A stretch of 64,000 nucleotides of DNA from Eudoraea adriatica DSM 19308 (GTDB taxonomy: Bacteria > Bacteroidota > Bacteroidia > Flavobacteriales > Flavobacteriaceae). The stretch covers positions 310,001 to 374,000 of the forward strand of contig NZ_KB907548.1 in NCBI RefSeq assembly GCF_000382125.1, in the 5' to 3' direction. The stretch's first letter is position 1, and every line of letters starts with the position of its first letter. The translations under genes were made by a program, and so were the position numbers. This document shows, piece after piece, positions 32,387 through 58,159 of this stretch. Below the pieces are notes generated by a model that made no database searches, was not told the DNA's origin, and saw only the letters and a program-made list of their open reading frames with translations.

Positions 32387-33031
32387 TTAATTCATAGGAA
32401 TAGCCTGTCCCGAGCCTGAGATATTGGTATTTATTGTTGGGCTGCCTTTGTAATAAACATTACCGCTGCCTTCGATTTTTACGTTTAGACTTTCTGTACA
32501 ATAGACTTCACAATCTCCTGAGCCTTCAATGCGTAAATCTACATTGGCAGCCATAAATTCTGAACAATTAATTGTTCCGGAGCCTTCATTTTCAATAATT
32601 AAGTTATCCGTGTAACCGGCAATGAAAATATTACCACTCCCTACATTTTCAATTTCCATGGTTCCGTCTCTTTGAACATCAAACACCGTAACTTCCCCCG
32701 TGCCTTCATTTTTTATGTAGTTTAAATCCGGTACGGTAATATTGGCTTCCAAATAGGTGTTTTTGTAGTTTCCCTCTTCCAGATAAATATTCAATTGATT
32801 GGCGGATACCCTTGTATTTACTTTATCAATAATATTATCATTCGCTATTATCTCCAAAGATTGCGTGGACCCATGCGTTATATTCACAATAAAAGTGCCA
32901 CTACTGTTAATTTTGGCAAAAGCGTTTACCTCTCTGAATTCTGAAATCGTATTTCCCGAACCTGTATAATTATCTTTGGAACAAGCACTTAATACTATTA
33001 TGGCTATTGCTAATACTAATAATCTTCTCAT
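32387..33031 (-). CDS. Head-GIN domain lipoprotein (DUF2807)
   Basis: A 214-residue lipoprotein with signal MRRLLVLAIAIIVLSAC (Cys17). The mature chain is a right-handed beta-helix-like DUF2807 domain rich in G-S-G turns: INSSGTFIVNITHG, IENVGSGNIFIAGY, IENEGSGTINCSE, IEGSGDCEVYC and IEGSGNVYYKG. The family is abundant in Bacteroidota and is often placed near ECF sigma factor or envelope-stress genes; its activity is unknown. It lies 16 bp downstream of a 38-codon ORF, and an ECF-like promoter precedes both. Confidence 0.9.
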   Translation of the reverse strand: MRRLLVLAIAIIVLSACSKDNYTGSGNTISEFREVNAFAKINSSGTFIVNITHGSTQSLEIIANDNIIDKVNTRVSANQLNIYLEEGNYKNTYLEANITVPDLNYIKNEGTGEVTVFDVQRDGTMEIENVGSGNIFIAGYTDNLIIENEGSGTINCSEFMAANVDLRIEGSGDCEVYCTESLNVKIEGSGNVYYKGSPTINTNISGSGQAIPMN

Positions 33032-33047
33032 GATCTACAGGATTGAT

Positions 33048-33164
33048 CTAAGAAACGCTGTCTTTTTTTGTTTGCTTTGAAGTATGACCTCTGCTCATGC
33101 TCCATCCATATCCCATATGATAATTTAAGGTCCGTTTAATGTAATTCATGTCAAGTGTTCTCAT
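33048..33164 (-). CDS. 38-residue basic small protein leading the head-GIN gene
   Basis: An ATG at 33164 opens a 38-codon frame ending in TAG at 33048, 16 bp before the head-GIN start. The product begins MRTLDMNYIKRTLNYHMG, continues YGWSMSRGHTSK and ends in KQTKKDSVS; net charge about +5, no hydrophobic segment. A second ATG (codon 6) is possible. The predicted ECF-like -10 ends 29 bp upstream of the ATG, so the ORF fills the leader of the transcript with an A-rich 20-25 nt untranslated region. I do not recognise the family. It is not alignable with the 37-residue proteins at 56377-56789, but it shares size, charge, an MR- start and nearly the same promoter. Confidence 0.5.
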   Translation of the reverse strand: MRTLDMNYIKRTLNYHMGYGWSMSRGHTSKQTKKDSVS

Positions 33165-33596
33165 GATGATTGTTTTTTAATTGATGTATATTTAATAGAC
33201 GAGAGCAATTAATTTTTGTTACAAAAAGTAAACCGTGCAGTTTTATTTGTAATTAATTCACGCTTTAATCCAGCTGTAACAAAACATCAGAAGGGAATTA
33301 TTGTTTGGTTTATAACAATAAATATCTTGAGGAAAGAACATTAAATTTTCCTGAAAAATTAAAGGTTTAAGAGGCCAAGGCTATTTTATTCCGAGGATTC
33401 TTTTAAAAATGCGAAGTTCACACTGATAGAACTTGCAGACAACCGCTATTAATTCTGAATACTTATTAGTTGATTTCATCTTGTTTTGAATATACTAGTT
33501 GACTATTAGTACTGCAAAGCACTAAAAAATCACATTCAAATAAAGATAAGTTGAGAAATTTACCGGGAAACCAGTCTTTTCAATGGAAATTTGAAG
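33165..33596. other. Intergenic region upstream of the head-GIN operon
   Basis: About 430 bp between the small-ORF leader and the cold-shock gene end. It contains the ECF-like promoter at 33193-33222 and the palindrome TAGTTGACTA at 33496-33505, flanked by ACTAG and TTAGT. A second GTAACAAAA at about 33286 on the plus strand has no matching -10. No further ORF is convincing. Confidence 0.4.
33193..33222 (-). promoter_or_regulatory. ECF-sigma-type promoter of the small ORF / head-GIN operon
   Basis: On the minus strand GTAAC (33222-33218), 16 bases, then CGTCTATTA (33201-33193). GTAAC/CGTC-type elements with 16-17 bp spacing are typical for ECF sigma factors. The 30-base block agrees with the one at 56280-56309 in 26 positions, including the full GTAACAAAAATTA and CGTCTATTA parts. 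Confidence 0.65.
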
Positions 33597-53874: not shown

Positions 53875-55977
53875 TTAATTTTTAACCAGGTTGGCCTGAA
53901 TATTATTCGGAACCGCCTTGAAAGAGGAAAAAGCTGAATTAAATGTTGCTTTCCCCTGAGTTAGAGACCTTAAATTGGTTGAATAACCGTAAAGCTCGGA
54001 CTGAGGTACTGCACACTTCAGAATCTGATAGTGATCTATGCTGTCAATTCCCTGAATGATAGACCTTCTTGATTGTAAATCCGTCATAACATTACCAACC
54101 ATTTCTTCGGGTACTTTAACGGTTAATTCCTGTATGGGTTCCAAAAGTTTAGGTTTGGCATTTAGAAAAGCTTCCTTAAAAGCATGCGCCCCTGCTATTT
54201 TGAAAGCGATATCGTTAGAGTCTACAGAATGCATTTTGCCGTCATAAACCATTACACGAACATCGCGTATATAAGAGCCTGTAAGCGGTCCTGATTCCAT
54301 TACCTCTAAAATACCTTTTTTAATGGATGGCAGATAACGTATATCTATGACGCCTCCTACTATACAATTATAGAATACCAACTTACCCCCCCAGGGAAGA
54401 TCAACTTCTTCCTTGCCTCTGATATTAAACCCTTCCGGTTCAGGCATCCCTTCATACCAGGGTTCTATTTTAAGGTGTACCTGTGCAAACTGACCCGCAC
54501 CTCCCGATTGCTTCTTATGCCTGTAATTAGCGTTCGATGCTCTTTGTATGGTTTCTCTATATGGAATTTTTGGAGCTTCAAATTGAGCTTCAACTCCATA
54601 GATATTGTCCAATGTCCATTTAATAGTTGCCAAATGCAATTCCCCCTGGCAACCTAAAATTAATTGCTTTAGTTCCTTTGAAAATTCAATCACAACTGTT
54701 GGATCCTGACTATGGATCTTCTTCAGAGCATCACTAAGTTTTTCCTCCTCATTCTTTTTCACTGCCGATACGGACTTACGCGTTCTTGGTTCCGGGTATT
54801 GTATAGGTTTAATAGTAATTGACTCCCCTGGCATATGCAGGGTATCATTGGTCTCTGTACTTTTGAGTTTTAATGTCGCTCCAATATCACCTACTTCCAA
54901 TTTTGGAACTGATTCTCGTTTTTTACCATCCATAATATAAAGATGATTTAGTATTTCCGTCTCACCAGTTCTGGAATTTACCAATTTATCATTTGCCTTA
55001 ACTTCCCCCGATTTTACTTTAAAGAAGGAGATTTGTCCCAAACTGGGTTGATAAACAGTTTTAAATACAAATAAAGCCGTTGGTGCTTCTTTTTTACGAA
55101 CCAGTACATCCCCCTCTACGGTTTGCTCCGGTTTTAAGTCGGCTGCAGCCGGTGCTACGTTATCTATGAAGCCCATTAGTCTGCCGCTACCCATATCATT
55201 TAGTGCAGAAACACAGAAAACCGGGAACAGTTCGTGATTTAGCATTCCTGCTTTAATACCTACGCGCATTTCATCTTCATTGAGGGTGCCTTTCTCAAAG
55301 AATAGCTCCAGTAATTCCTCGTCATTCTCCGCAGCTTTTTCAACAAGTTCATTGTGCAATTCATCAGCCCTCTCTTTTTGGTTTTCCGGAATTGGCAATT
55401 TTTCCGGTTTTCCCCCTTCAGGTGAAAATTTATAGCATTTCATTTTAAGAACATCAATAATGCATTGTGCGCCATCAATAATCAATGGATATTGAATAAT
55501 TACCGCATTGTTGCCTACGAGCTCCCTTACCCCTTTAAACGAGTTCTCAAAATTTGCATTTGCATGGTCTATTTGATTAACAACAAAAAGTGTGGGCTTA
55601 GAATAGTTATTAACATAATTCCAGATTATTTCAGTTCCAATTTCCACACCGTGCTGGGCATTTAAAACTGTAACAATTGTATCTGCCACACGAATAGAAG
55701 ATATAATTTCTCCTACAAAATCATCCAAACCCGGGGTGTCTATTATGTTTATCTTGTAGTTACGCCATTCGGTATGAAGTGGTGTTGCATATACCGAAGT
55801 GCCCCGCTCATGTTCAATTTCATGATAATCTGAAACCGTATTTTGTGTTTCAACCGTTCCTCTCCTGTTAATAAGACCGGCTTCGAAGAGCATGGTTTCG
55901 GCAAGCGTAGTTTTACCACTATTATGCGCTCCTACGAATACCACATTTTTAATGTGTTTGTCATCATATATTTTCAT
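53875..55977 (-). CDS. EF-G-like translational GTPase (EF-G2 type)
   Basis: A 700-residue GTPase with the five-domain layout of elongation factor G. G1 is GAHNSGKT (16-23) in place of the usual AHIDAGKT; G3 is DTPG (80-83), and G4 is NQID (134-137). Domain II (TALFVFKTVYQPSLGQISFF), domain IV (KKQSGGAGQFAQVHLKIEP) and domain V (MVGNVMTDLQSRRSIIQGID) are present. HERGTSVYA replaces the RGITI of normal EF-G. It is therefore the EF-G2/FusA2-like paralogue rather than the main translocase, and its role (translocation, recycling or ribosome rescue) is open. It is monocistronic. Confidence 0.88.
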   Translation of the reverse strand: MKIYDDKHIKNVVFVGAHNSGKTTLAETMLFEAGLINRRGTVETQNTVSDYHEIEHERGTSVYATPLHTEWRNYKINIIDTPGLDDFVGEIISSIRVADTIVTVLNAQHGVEIGTEIIWNYVNNYSKPTLFVVNQIDHANANFENSFKGVRELVGNNAVIIQYPLIIDGAQCIIDVLKMKCYKFSPEGGKPEKLPIPENQKERADELHNELVEKAAENDEELLELFFEKGTLNEDEMRVGIKAGMLNHELFPVFCVSALNDMGSGRLMGFIDNVAPAAADLKPEQTVEGDVLVRKKEAPTALFVFKTVYQPSLGQISFFKVKSGEVKANDKLVNSRTGETEILNHLYIMDGKKRESVPKLEVGDIGATLKLKSTETNDTLHMPGESITIKPIQYPEPRTRKSVSAVKKNEEEKLSDALKKIHSQDPTVVIEFSKELKQLILGCQGELHLATIKWTLDNIYGVEAQFEAPKIPYRETIQRASNANYRHKKQSGGAGQFAQVHLKIEPWYEGMPEPEGFNIRGKEEVDLPWGGKLVFYNCIVGGVIDIRYLPSIKKGILEVMESGPLTGSYIRDVRVMVYDGKMHSVDSNDIAFKIAGAHAFKEAFLNAKPKLLEPIQELTVKVPEEMVGNVMTDLQSRRSIIQGIDSIDHYQILKCAVPQSELYGYSTNLRSLTQGKATFNSAFSSFKAVPNNIQANLVKN

Positions 55978-56254
55978 ATGTCCTTGTTTTTGGGAATAAA
56001 ATCATAAATCTAATATGGATATAAAATATAGCATATGACTTTTGTTAGGTTTTAGTTTGACGAGTTACTACAAGATAAGTTTTAATTGCTTTTTATCCTT
56101 AACTTTTTCATCTTTTTTATAGGTCTGTTCCCAAATTCAAATTTTAACCGAATTAATTATTAAAAAAAGATTATATACTAAAATGCTCTATAACAAGTAA
56201 ATAAGTATGTTTTTATTTTATGCTACCCCTATCAATTGTTAAAAATTGTATAAA

Positions 56255-56281
56255 ACGGTACTATTTTATACATAGTACTGT
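56255..56281. promoter_or_regulatory. Inverted repeat overlapping the -35 of the small-protein promoter
   Basis: Arms ACGGTACTA (56255-56263) and TAGTACTGT (56273-56281) have one mismatch and a nine-base spacer. The right arm runs into GTAAC of the promoter, so a bound regulator could block or help the polymerase. No binding protein can be named. Confidence 0.45.
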
Positions 56282-56309
56282 AACAAAAATTATTTCTTGT
56301 CGTCTATTA
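56280..56309 (+). promoter_or_regulatory. ECF-sigma-type promoter of the small-protein array
   Basis: GTAAC (56280-56284), 16 bases, CGTCTATTA (56301-56309). This agrees with the head-GIN promoter at 33193-33222 in 26 of 30 positions with the same spacing. The first small ORF starts 68 bp after the -10 block. Confidence 0.65.
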
Positions 56310-56376
56310 GTTGTAGATCATTAAGATTTACAATTAAAAAGGAAAAAAACACTATCAACTTTAAAAAATATAAACG

Positions 56377-56490
56377 ATGAGAAATTTTAGCAATCAAACA
56401 CCAACAGAATCAAGAAGGTATTCATTCTTTTCTAATTTTAAGAACAGCAAGAGAGTACGCTGGTCAGAAGCAAGAAACTATACCAATTAA
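56377..56490 (+). CDS. 37-residue basic small protein, array copy 1
   Basis: An ATG at 56377 opens a 37-codon frame ending in TAA. The product begins MRNFSNQTPTESRR, has the core FFSNFKNSKRVRW and ends SEARNYTN. Net charge is about +6; there is no signal peptide, membrane segment or cysteine. Together with the next two copies it defines a family with invariant R2, PT at 9-10, SRR at 12-14, FSN at 18-20, K22, SKRVRW at 24-29, E31, R33 and Y35. The family is unknown to me. It is the first gene behind the ECF-like promoter. Arg-rich basic character allows nucleic-acid, ribosome or membrane-surface binding; none is shown. Confidence 0.75.
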   Translation: MRNFSNQTPTESRRYSFFSNFKNSKRVRWSEARNYTN

Positions 56491-56513
56491 TATTAATTTA
56501 AAAGCGAACAATC

Positions 56514-56627
56514 ATGAGGCATTTTATCAAGCAGACACCAACAGAATCCAGAAGGCACACGTTCTTTTCTAATTTTAAAAACAGCAAAAGGGTACGCTGG
56601 GCTGAAGTAAGACACTATACTATCTAA
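56514..56627 (+). CDS. 37-residue basic small protein, array copy 2
   Basis: The same length as copy 1 and 23 bp behind it. The product begins MRHFIKQTPTESRR, core FFSNFKNSKRVRW, end AEVRHYTI, net charge about +7. Against copy 1 it has at least seven synonymous codon changes (for example AGA/AGG at R2 and R26, AAG/AAA at K22 and K25, TCA/TCC at S12), with replacements gathered at variable positions 3-6, 15-16 and 30-37. This is the pattern of purifying selection on protein. A-rich spacer before the ATG, as for the other copies. Confidence 0.75.
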   Translation: MRHFIKQTPTESRRHTFFSNFKNSKRVRWAEVRHYTI

Positions 56628-56675
56628 TAGCTGGATAGTAAAATAAAAAGTAAGAAAACATTAAAAATAAAAGAA

Positions 56676-56789
56676 ATGAGACATTTACTACAACATTCAC
56701 CAACAGATTCAAGAAGGTTTTCATACTTCTCCAATCTTAAGGATAGCAAACGAGTTCGCTGGACAGAAAGCAGAAATTATGTACGGTAG
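56676..56789 (+). CDS. 37-residue basic small protein, array copy 3
   Basis: Again 37 codons, 48 bp behind copy 2. The product begins MRHLLQHSPTDSRR, core YFSNLKDSKRVRW, end TESRNYVR, net charge about +6. It is the most diverged copy, with conservative changes only in the core (F to Y, F to L, N to D, E to D) and different codons for conserved residues (CGA for R26, GTT for V27, TTC for F18). It ends the array; two hairpins follow, the second with a T-tract. Confidence 0.75.
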   Translation: MRHLLQHSPTDSRRFSYFSNLKDSKRVRWTESRNYVR

Positions 56790-56803
56790 CGAAAAGAAAG
56801 GAT

Positions 56804-56868
56804 CCGGCCCGATTAAGCCGGCGGAGATTTAACGAAGGAGGTAATAGTAATTAACCTCCTTTTTTTAT
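56804..56868 (+). terminator. Terminator of the small-protein array
   Basis: A GC-rich hairpin CCGGC/GCCGG (56804-56808 and 56817-56821) is followed by AAGGAGGT (56835-56842), an 11-base loop, ACCTCCTT (56854-56861) and a run of Ts on the plus strand. The direction of the T-tract shows that the plus-strand array is transcribed as a unit. Confidence 0.8.
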
Positions 56869-56880
56869 GTTCATTTACTA

Positions 56881-57585
56881 TCAATTATCCTTTCTGGTGA
56901 GAGGAACAAATCTCACAGCCATAACCGCCTTGGTTTTAATTTTCCCCGATTTATTCGTTATCAGCAGTAATTCCCTCACTCCATTGTGTGGTCCGACAGG
57001 AATAATCATACTCCCTCCTTCCTTTAGTTGTTTCAAAAGTGGCTCAGGAATTTCCTCTGCTCCCGCGGTAACTATTATTGCATCGAAAGGTCCTTTCTCG
57101 GGCCAACCAAGATATCCATCACCGGATTTTACATGAATATTGTCATACCCTAATGCAGAAAGTCTGTTTTTAGCGGTTATAGCCAATACCTCAACAATTT
57201 CAATGGTGTATACAGAATCTACTATTTGTCCCAATATGGCTGCCTGGTAGCCAGATCCGGTACCGACTTCCAAAACACGGTGGTGCTTTTTTAATTTCAG
57301 AATCTGGGTCATGTAAGCTACGATATAAGGCTGGGAAATGGTCTGCCCCATTCCTATAGACAATGGATTGTCTGTATATGCATACGGTTGCATTTTGGCA
57401 GGTACAAACTCATGTCTGGGAACATTTCGCATTGCGTTTAAAGTAGCCGGATCGTTTATGTCTCTTGCCAACAGCTGTTCCTTTATCATGTTTTCCCGTA
57501 ATTGCTTAAAGTTTATTTGGCTATGACTAAATGTTGCAAACAGGTAAATTATACCCAGGACAAGTACTTTAAATATAAATCTCAT
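56881..57585 (-). CDS. pcm: Exported protein-L-isoaspartate O-methyltransferase
   Basis: A 234-residue PCMT with an N-terminal signal peptide (MRFIFKVLVLGIIYLFATFSHSQ; start 57585). The methyltransferase has VLEVGTGSGYQAAIL (motif I), MGQTISQPYIVAYM (substrate loop), AIIVTAGAEEIPEPLLKQL and GGSMIIPVGPH. PCMT methylates isoaspartyl residues to start repair of aged proteins, using S-adenosylmethionine. Signal-bearing versions occur in other Gram-negatives; how SAM would reach the periplasm is unclear. It lies in a same-strand group with DUF4251 (58-bp gap) and a second exported methyltransferase. Confidence 0.9.
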   Translation of the reverse strand: MRFIFKVLVLGIIYLFATFSHSQINFKQLRENMIKEQLLARDINDPATLNAMRNVPRHEFVPAKMQPYAYTDNPLSIGMGQTISQPYIVAYMTQILKLKKHHRVLEVGTGSGYQAAILGQIVDSVYTIEIVEVLAITAKNRLSALGYDNIHVKSGDGYLGWPEKGPFDAIIVTAGAEEIPEPLLKQLKEGGSMIIPVGPHNGVRELLLITNKSGKIKTKAVMAVRFVPLTRKDN

Positions 57586-57643
57586 TGTTTTCACTGATGT
57601 CAATTTAGAATAGTAAGAATTCCAGTACAGCTAAACAGATAAT

Positions 57644-58159
57644 TTAGTTAATATTTTCTTCTTTTATTGGCTTCAAATACCCAATATAATTTATTGAAGA
57701 CCGCGCACTGCTTATTACTTTTACAGTGGTCTGTCCGCCATAGCCTACAGTAAGAGTAATATCGTGGCGCTCTGAACCGCTGCGTACTCCTATTTTAATA
57801 ATGGACCGTCTTTTCTTATCAATATATTTTACACTGTATTTATCCGGAACCCCTTTGTAGGTGATACCGGAGTTGGTATTATAGCCCCCGGCCCCTCTTG
57901 CTGTGCCAAAAAATGGTAAATCTATATCAACTTCTCCATCTTTGACTATAAAACGATTTGGTATTGTTGCTAATGTTATTCCTGTAGAAATGTAGTTTGG
58001 ATCGAACAGATAATTACCGGAATCAATCAGTTCCTGCATAACATTATATGCTGTATTTTTTTGGTCTTCCTTTTTTTGATGCTTTTCATCCTTTTTTTGA
58101 GCGGTCAAAGTTGAAGTAACCAATATCAAAATTATTGTTTTGAGAAAAATGTTTTTCAC
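57644..58159 (-). CDS. DUF4251 exported protein
   Basis: A 171-residue exported protein with GTG start and signal MKNIFLKTIILILVTSTLTAQ, a charged KKDEKHQKKEDQK linker, and a DUF4251 domain: LIDSGNYLFDPNYIS, GEVDIDLPFFGTARGAGGYN, SGITYKGVPDKYSV, RHDITLTVGYGGQTTVKVIS and SINYIGYL. The family is Bacteroidota-specific and of unknown function. It lies between two exported methyltransferase genes on the same strand. Confidence 0.85.
   Translation of the reverse strand: MKNIFLKTIILILVTSTLTAQKKDEKHQKKEDQKNTAYNVMQELIDSGNYLFDPNYISTGITLATIPNRFIVKDGEVDIDLPFFGTARGAGGYNTNSGITYKGVPDKYSVKYIDKKRRSIIKIGVRSGSERHDITLTVGYGGQTTVKVISSARSSINYIGYLKPIKEENIN

Follow-up and report, generated by a model that had tools for sequence, protein, structure and literature searches.

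Envelope-stress systems of the phage-shock protein (PSP) and Lia type include HAAS-PadR systems with PspC and Toastrack domains, which have been described as membrane-stress modules and in which DUF2807 is counted as Toastrack (PMC11237479). In Flavobacterium psychrophilum, a regulon dependent on an extracytoplasmic function (ECF) sigma factor is marked by motif SM6, in which the -10 box carries a conserved CGT; among its targets are an ECF/anti-sigma pair, Band-7 genes, genes of the type IX secretion system (T9SS) and a single putative regulatory RNA (PMC9723704). Conserved, unannotated short open reading frames (ORFs) also form families in a global small-ORF (smORF) catalogue (PMC11364881). 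Here we describe an array of three tandem genes for 37-amino-acid (aa) basic proteins in a 64 000-nucleotide stretch of the Eudoraea adriatica DSM 19308 genome (the window) and compare it with these systems.

The controller operon that we associate with the array resembles the PSP/Lia-type modules in encoding PadR, PspC, LiaI-LiaF-TM and Toastrack domains with a weak HAAS, and the dyad in its promoter is common to the array promoter; unlike in those systems, the 37-aa proteins are without a significant Pfam match, and microprotein effectors of such a kind go unmentioned in the available part of that description (PMC11237479). The array promoter is like that of the SM6 regulon, with its ECF/anti-sigma pair, in having a CGT-type -10 box, whereas the T9SS, Band-7 and RNA targets are unlike what is seen here, and neither microproteins nor the dyad are described in the available text of that report (PMC9723704). 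The array ORFs share with the smORF families (PMC11364881) that they are conserved and unannotated; the composite promoter and the W-x3-R-x-Y core set out below come from the present analysis. On balance we favour the reading that the array encodes translated cytoplasmic microproteins, made from tandem genes, that would belong to a Flavobacteriaceae envelope-stress regulon under a PadR/PspC system and an ECF sigma factor.

Conservation and range of the 37-residue family

The array is a single unit with one promoter in front and one terminator behind, and each of its ORFs comprises 37 codons and a stop:

56237..56243, plus strand: TGTTAAA block preceding the dyad, from the consensus of 53 array promoters
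56258..56278, strand-neutral: 21-bp dyad GTACTAT-N7-ATAGTAC, proposed PadR operator
56278..56305, plus strand: ECF-type promoter, CTGTAAC (56278-56284), 16-nt spacer, CGTCT (56301-56305)
56307..56337, plus strand: hairpin in the 5' leader, where the mRNA presumably starts (z -4.85)
56377..56490, plus strand: 37-aa microprotein copy 1 (dN/dS 0.072 in the genus)
56514..56627, plus strand: 37-aa microprotein copy 2 (dN/dS 0.097 in the genus)
56676..56789, plus strand: 37-aa microprotein copy 3 (dN/dS 0.086 in the genus)
56834..56866, plus strand: intrinsic terminator, hairpin followed by a T run

An initial annotation of this DNA had proposed three plus-strand 37-codon ORFs with 20 invariant residues, a net charge of +6 to +7 and no cysteine, preceded by a shared ECF-like promoter and followed by a terminator. 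On recount the ORFs stood at the coordinates given, exactly the 20 listed residues were invariant, the quoted codon differences were correct, net charges (K+R-D-E) were +6, +7 and +6, and none of the three copies contained a cysteine. The terminator is real (hairpin 56834-56862, then T's; z -2.6), a simple terminator scan having left it unlisted. The ECF boxes are real as well, but the promoter is richer than described: its key element, the dyad common to a PadR-PspC-Toastrack operon, had been missed. When positions 56130-56880 were subjected to 500 dinucleotide shuffles, the best pair of small ORFs reached at most 19% identity versus 76% in the array, and none of the 500 came close. The divergent neighbour of the array encodes an EF-G-like GTPase (53875-55977, minus strand), and such a gene adjoins arrays in several other genera.

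Across eight congeneric genomes substitutions in the array fell mostly at codon position 3, with the low dN/dS values listed above, and pN/pS between the window's own three copies was 0.21 to 0.57. The dN/dS of 0.07-0.10 supports the earlier claim that constraint acts on protein; the check that had been proposed, a search for conserved intact homologues with low dN/dS, found both, so that the outcomes named as counting against that claim were not observed.

Strong matches to the family were present in nine of ten genomes of the genus, the tenth genome being 60% complete, and the wider genome collection yielded 47 named loci from, among others, Eudoraea, Muriicola, Saonia, Robiginitalea, Maribacter, Kriegella and Lutibacter. 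Searches with a 55-row profile gave matches in 63 of 397 Flavobacteriaceae genomes (E <=0.01), with up to 11 per genome, in six of 296 genomes of an order sample (one weak match lying outside Flavobacteriaceae) and in four of 395 genomes of a phylum sample; these counts are lower bounds because only 19-25 candidates were scored in many genomes, and some of the 63 matches are weak (E 0.001-0.01). Across the 145 distinct members that are exactly 37 residues long, conservation was 94% at T10, 92% at F18, 91% at S19 and K25, 94% at R26, 93% at W29 and 91% at R33. Of 170 distinct members, 157 had a net charge between +5 and +8.

No significant match for the family was found in Pfam or NCBIfam, in agreement with its earlier description as apparently undescribed. 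The best weak library matches over 55 members were NF047934 (two members, E 0.0053) and NF040975 (one member, E 0.033, below that model's cut-off), followed by PF19184 (two, E 0.07) and PF03528 (one, E 0.15). Against the PDB, a copy-level query (P0001) had zero matches up to E 10, and a profile (A2) had only two, to a cytokine receptor (E 0.39 and 0.57), with no ribosome-bound chain matched; Rfam had zero matches in positions 55000-58000. A literature search, outside which most subscription papers lie, found a description of the family in no title, abstract start or passage, and the family's peptide words had zero occurrences in a text search. Judged by these comparisons, the 37-aa proteins form a conserved, protein-coding and unnamed family.

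A degenerate copy closes a four-member array in locus L052 (6001-6132), which suggests birth and decay of array copies. Single divergent 35-aa relatives (MRHSN[KR]STK..) occur in L086, L087 and L090, the first two with ECF boxes.

The array promoter and the PadR operon

In the window the dyad overlaps the -35 box by one base, and by sequence a composite promoter, a dyad abutting an ECF -35, heads the array. ECF boxes (-35 AAC, -10 CGT) were found at 55 of 74 arrays, with a spacer of 16 in 53 and 17 in two, and in 48 of these 55 the adjoining 21-mer both begins and ends with GTAC. Outside the window the element often reads GTACCTT..ATAGTAC. In a thinned set, 53 of 73 arrays fitted the ECF pattern and four of the remaining 20 were judged variants on inspection. 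Promoter-bearing arrays mostly lacked a close co-directional gene (39 of 53); 14 of the 20 promoter-less arrays had one, and the genes beside the latter included a 2TM kinase/LytTR system, MacB-type efflux and an ankyrin-repeat gene, among others.

Only the composite pattern, dyad plus ECF boxes, is specific. A loose ECF pattern was rejected as a regulon finder, with 10 matches in the window's own genome versus four for the reversed control, so that many of its single matches arise by chance; a search for the dyad by itself, one mismatch allowed, did no better than its control (11 in the own genome versus 16). By comparison, the composite pattern, A[AT][AG]GTACTGTAAC-N15-17-CGTC, was present in 156 of 395 Flavobacteriaceae genomes and its reversed control in none of the 395. 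The 5'-leader hairpin, kept in much of the genus, had z below -2 in only 10 of 62 arrays and was rejected as a family-wide RNA element; we treat it as genus-specific.

When genomes of the genus were searched for the dyad with one mismatch allowed, the matches included the array, a 71-aa hydrophobic ORF and a recurrent site before an operon of the order DUF4870 - PadR - PspC/LiaI-LiaF-TM/Toastrack. In the window's genome this operon has PadR, PspC, LiaI-LiaF-TM, Toastrack and DUF4870 domains, HAAS falling below cut-off. Its dyad contains ATG-N5-CAT within GTACTATG..CATAATAC, the array version having CAT on one side only; the canonical PadR motif is given as an ATGT/ACAT inverted repeat in the available part of one report (PMC3506622). 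TGTTAA repeats also lie upstream of the dyad at most of the PadR operons displayed. A PadR in Zobellia is mentioned in a source available in part (PMC5613140) and could not be linked to the PadR of this operon.

Of the 24 array genomes searched, two of which probably represent one and the same genome, 23 had an orthologue of this PadR (the exception was the genome of L034), as did all 20 genomes chosen for an absent 37-aa match. The 1.4-kb region preceding padR contained the dyad, with at most one mismatch, in 21 of 23 array genomes (those with an orthologue, the own genome added and the duplicate dropped) versus two of 230 shuffled regions, and in 18 of the 20 genomes lacking such a family match versus none of 200. 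With up to two mismatches the counts were 22 of 23 versus 13 of 230, and 20 of 20 versus eight of 200, the two-mismatch site of L228 looking, from its context, like chance. By hand count, 12 of 13 genomes with neither a 37-aa match nor the composite promoter (G456 left out) still had the PadR dyad with at most one mismatch. The dyad is thus common to the array promoter and the PadR-PspC/Toastrack operon at the level of sequence and, being present without arrays too, is most simply read as the PadR system's own operator, which array promoters have in common with it; it is probably the binding site of the PadR encoded in that operon.

For transcription, the best candidate is an apparently autoregulated ECF sigma factor whose gene is followed by one gene without assignment and two DUF4252 genes, and has TGTAAC-N16-CGTCT upstream. 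An orthologue was found in 18 of 18 array genomes, and TGT[AT]AC-N16-CGTC lay upstream of it in all 17 of the 18 for which its start was located, as TGTAAC in 11 and TGTTAC in six. The five genomes in which the array -35 box is CTGTTAC (those of L038, L043, L046, L047 and L048) have TGTTAC in the sigma promoter also. A second ECF sigma gene was seen in L084 (near 14568, minus strand), with TGTAAC-N17-CGTCTT just upstream, and similar 17-spacer sites occur in other genomes of the genus.

Several observations weigh against a single regulon under PadR and this sigma factor. The ECF pattern is not matched at 20 of 73 arrays, and several single copies lie within other operons behind other upstream sequences. 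The arrays of L038, L043, L046, L047 and L049 (minus strand) have ECF boxes and no dyad, and the halves of the dyad are often unequal (CTT with ATA). Further near-dyads turn up repeatedly across genus genomes in the one-mismatch search, which does not exceed its control in specificity, so that the case for the PadR link rests on the upstream-of-padR counts; in addition, six of the 20 genomes taken as lacking the family (G015, G026, G028, G133, G162 and G182) carry the composite promoter. As to the sigma factor, the five TGTTAC genomes may be one lineage, which would weaken the link, the arrays of L022 (TGTAAC) and L049 (GAAAC) differ from the sigma promoters of their genomes (TGTTAC and TGTAAC respectively), and the -10 flanks of the sigma promoter differ from those of the arrays.

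In L025, L039 and L044 single copies precede an operon of a 2TM-type histidine kinase and 2TM proteins, that of L025 being Pfam-checked and including a LytTR regulator, and the other two assigned by BLAST cluster. An ACARTTCGGT element lies upstream of all three, where the exact TAnnTTTG box was not found. The 71-aa hydrophobic ORF is conserved (L071-L074, L076) and in other genus genomes is associated with ECF boxes and a TACATAGTACTGTAACA element; the ORF of L072 had no Pfam match, and an exact-pattern search of the window's own genome did not find the boxes with this element.

Other microproteins behind the composite promoter

By hand count, 44 of the 156 genomes with the composite promoter also had a 37-aa match and about 112 did not. 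In a first promoter-only set (30 loci, 31 sites), 29 of 31 sites preceded small ORFs with the core W-x3-[RK]-x-[YFH], which occurred in 61 of 108 sense small ORFs versus none of 59 antisense; the two exceptions, both in L267, lie upstream of 188-aa proteins. Given that this core had been formulated after reading the first-set loci, 40 further sites were fetched from genomes without a 37-aa match, with the core fixed beforehand. It was found at 35 of the 40, in 71 of 125 sense small ORFs versus none of 81 antisense, where 1.4 were expected from residue shuffles. Over a set of 99 sites, which were partly chosen via the 37-aa family, the counts were 231 of 382 sense and one of 205 antisense ORFs, with 8.2 expected. 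On these counts the composite promoter also heads other predicted microproteins sharing the core. The earlier proposal of repeated duplication of one small protein therefore holds for the tandem copies but is too narrow, as the promoter precedes several sequence-distinct W-x3-R-x-Y microproteins.

These fall into types of approximately 28 aa (MRTLNNNQLT..SK..WN.KRRYR), 43-44 aa (..IWKGTKRYAH) and 37-43 aa (..GWNTDRLYD), besides the 37-aa type, and the 28-aa and 37-aa types are mixed in L262. A profile comparison aligned the 28-aa type with the 37-aa type, the W and R falling in the same register (P 0.0003). From small samples, dN/dS came to 0.36 in the 28-aa type (10 pairs) and 0.13 in the 43-44-aa type (four pairs). 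Kinship between the types is called into question by an hhalign probability of only 40% for the 28-aa and 37-aa pair and by weaker profile comparisons for two other pairs (P 0.048 and 0.12). The generality of the core is likewise reduced by the five of 40 second-set sites that lack it: L298, L299 and L300 lie upstream of longer proteins, L277 has nothing clear, and L272 has two identical 29-aa ORFs (MRTSSETKN..YFKRRIA) without the core tryptophan.

An ExbD/TolR-like gene follows many 28-aa arrays, such as that of L259 (Pfam ExbD for one), and an ExbD-like gene lies within 1 kb downstream of 13 of 31 first-set and 15 of 40 second-set sites. Secreted-looking proteins, some with GFDT..YLP.GFDP repeats, are encoded behind ECF boxes in L081, L267, L298 and L299; that of L081 had no Pfam match.

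The window holds a second unit with ECF-type boxes, the small ORF of which the initial annotation had overlooked:

33196..33223, minus strand: second ECF-type promoter, TGTAAC-N16-CGTCTA, without the dyad
33048..33164, minus strand: 38-aa ORF, MRTLDMN..GWSMSRGH.., resembling the 28-aa type (MRTL start, W-x3-R-x-H)
32387..33031, minus strand: putative DUF2807 (Toastrack) lipoprotein behind the second promoter

Among the loci examined the 38-aa ORF was found elsewhere in L091 only, and it had no match in Pfam; it is related to the 28-aa microproteins by resemblance, homology not being proven.

A candidate envelope-stress role and its alternatives

In the mechanism that we propose, PadR of the PspC/Toastrack operon would bind the dyad and keep the array off, and membrane stress sensed by the PspC/Toastrack protein would lift this repression. 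An ECF sigma factor, for which the DUF4252-linked one is the best candidate, would then transcribe the array. Less firmly, the microproteins might dock via the W-x3-R-x-Y core, the sharing of which suggests one docking site, onto one common target, probably at or near the cytoplasmic face of envelope machinery; tandem copies could give dose and differing N-termini could tune the action. We advance only tentatively the broader proposal of a Flavobacteriaceae superfamily of approximately 28-44 residues, with a W-x3-[RK]-x-[YFH] docking core, interchangeable N-termini and mixed tandem arrays behind one PadR-dyad and ECF composite promoter. This superfamily would be the effector arm, hitherto unseen, of a phage-shock-like response that lacks PspA, and would have one conserved target.

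The idea of an amphipathic membrane helix was rejected as the leading one: at 100 degrees the mean hydrophobic moment of 165 members fell short of the shuffled value in each of four tests (residues 9-22, 0.14 versus 0.26; residues 25-35, 0.35 versus 0.37), only residues 25-35 being slightly above shuffled at 160 degrees (0.42 versus 0.37). Simple membrane insertion is disfavoured by this test, as is simple amphipathic binding to the membrane surface, one of the targets that had been suggested at the outset. AlphaFold2 predicted, at low confidence, two short helices (residues 9-22 and 25-33; pLDDT 63.5, pTM 0.22). An origin in mobile elements was also rejected, copy 1 having zero matches in phage or plasmid records; a pattern-limited scan of viral contigs gave zero profile matches.

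Of the alternatives, the one that fares best, although we consider it unlikely, casts the microproteins as binders of the ribosome or RNA that adjust translation during stress in the manner of a hibernation or modulation factor. Their strong positive charge, conserved aromatic and basic residues, lack of an amphipathic helix pattern and the EF-G-like GTPase gene beside the window's array and those of several other genera would suit such a role; however, that neighbour is absent at many other arrays, no PDB chain was matched significantly and the regulation points toward the envelope. Somewhat less probable still are feedback peptides that bind PadR, PspC or a sigma/anti-sigma pair and end or sustain their own response, as the shared dyad at the array and PadR operon and the single copies ahead of the 2TM-kinase operon in L025, L039 and L044 might suggest; up to 11 matches per genome would be unusual for a feedback peptide, and PadR is also present in each of the 20 genomes that were selected for the absence of the 37-aa family. 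Small toxins, or peptides with an antimicrobial or signalling function, could likewise be short, basic, tandem and variable in copy number, but we regard this as very improbable: no hydrophobic segment or export signal was seen by eye, the helices are not amphipathic, phage, plasmid and viral sequences gave no match as described above, and the proteins are not sporadic but occur widely within one family, with a conserved promoter in front of them. That the array acts as RNA (leader peptides, an attenuator or a sponge) with incidental ORFs is the least credible reading, for which the 5' hairpin in the genus and the closeness of short ORFs to promoters speak, but against which stand dN/dS of 0.07-0.10, arrays mostly standing alone, a hairpin that is not family-wide and zero Rfam matches around the array.

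If the envelope-stress reading is correct, a widespread bacterial group would have a hidden arm of its stress response, composed of proteins that are too short for the profile libraries used here, and the PadR-PspC-Toastrack system would gain a concrete candidate operator and candidate effectors. The promoter pattern would then directly find unannotated microprotein genes, and asking what such systems make would become a simple experiment.
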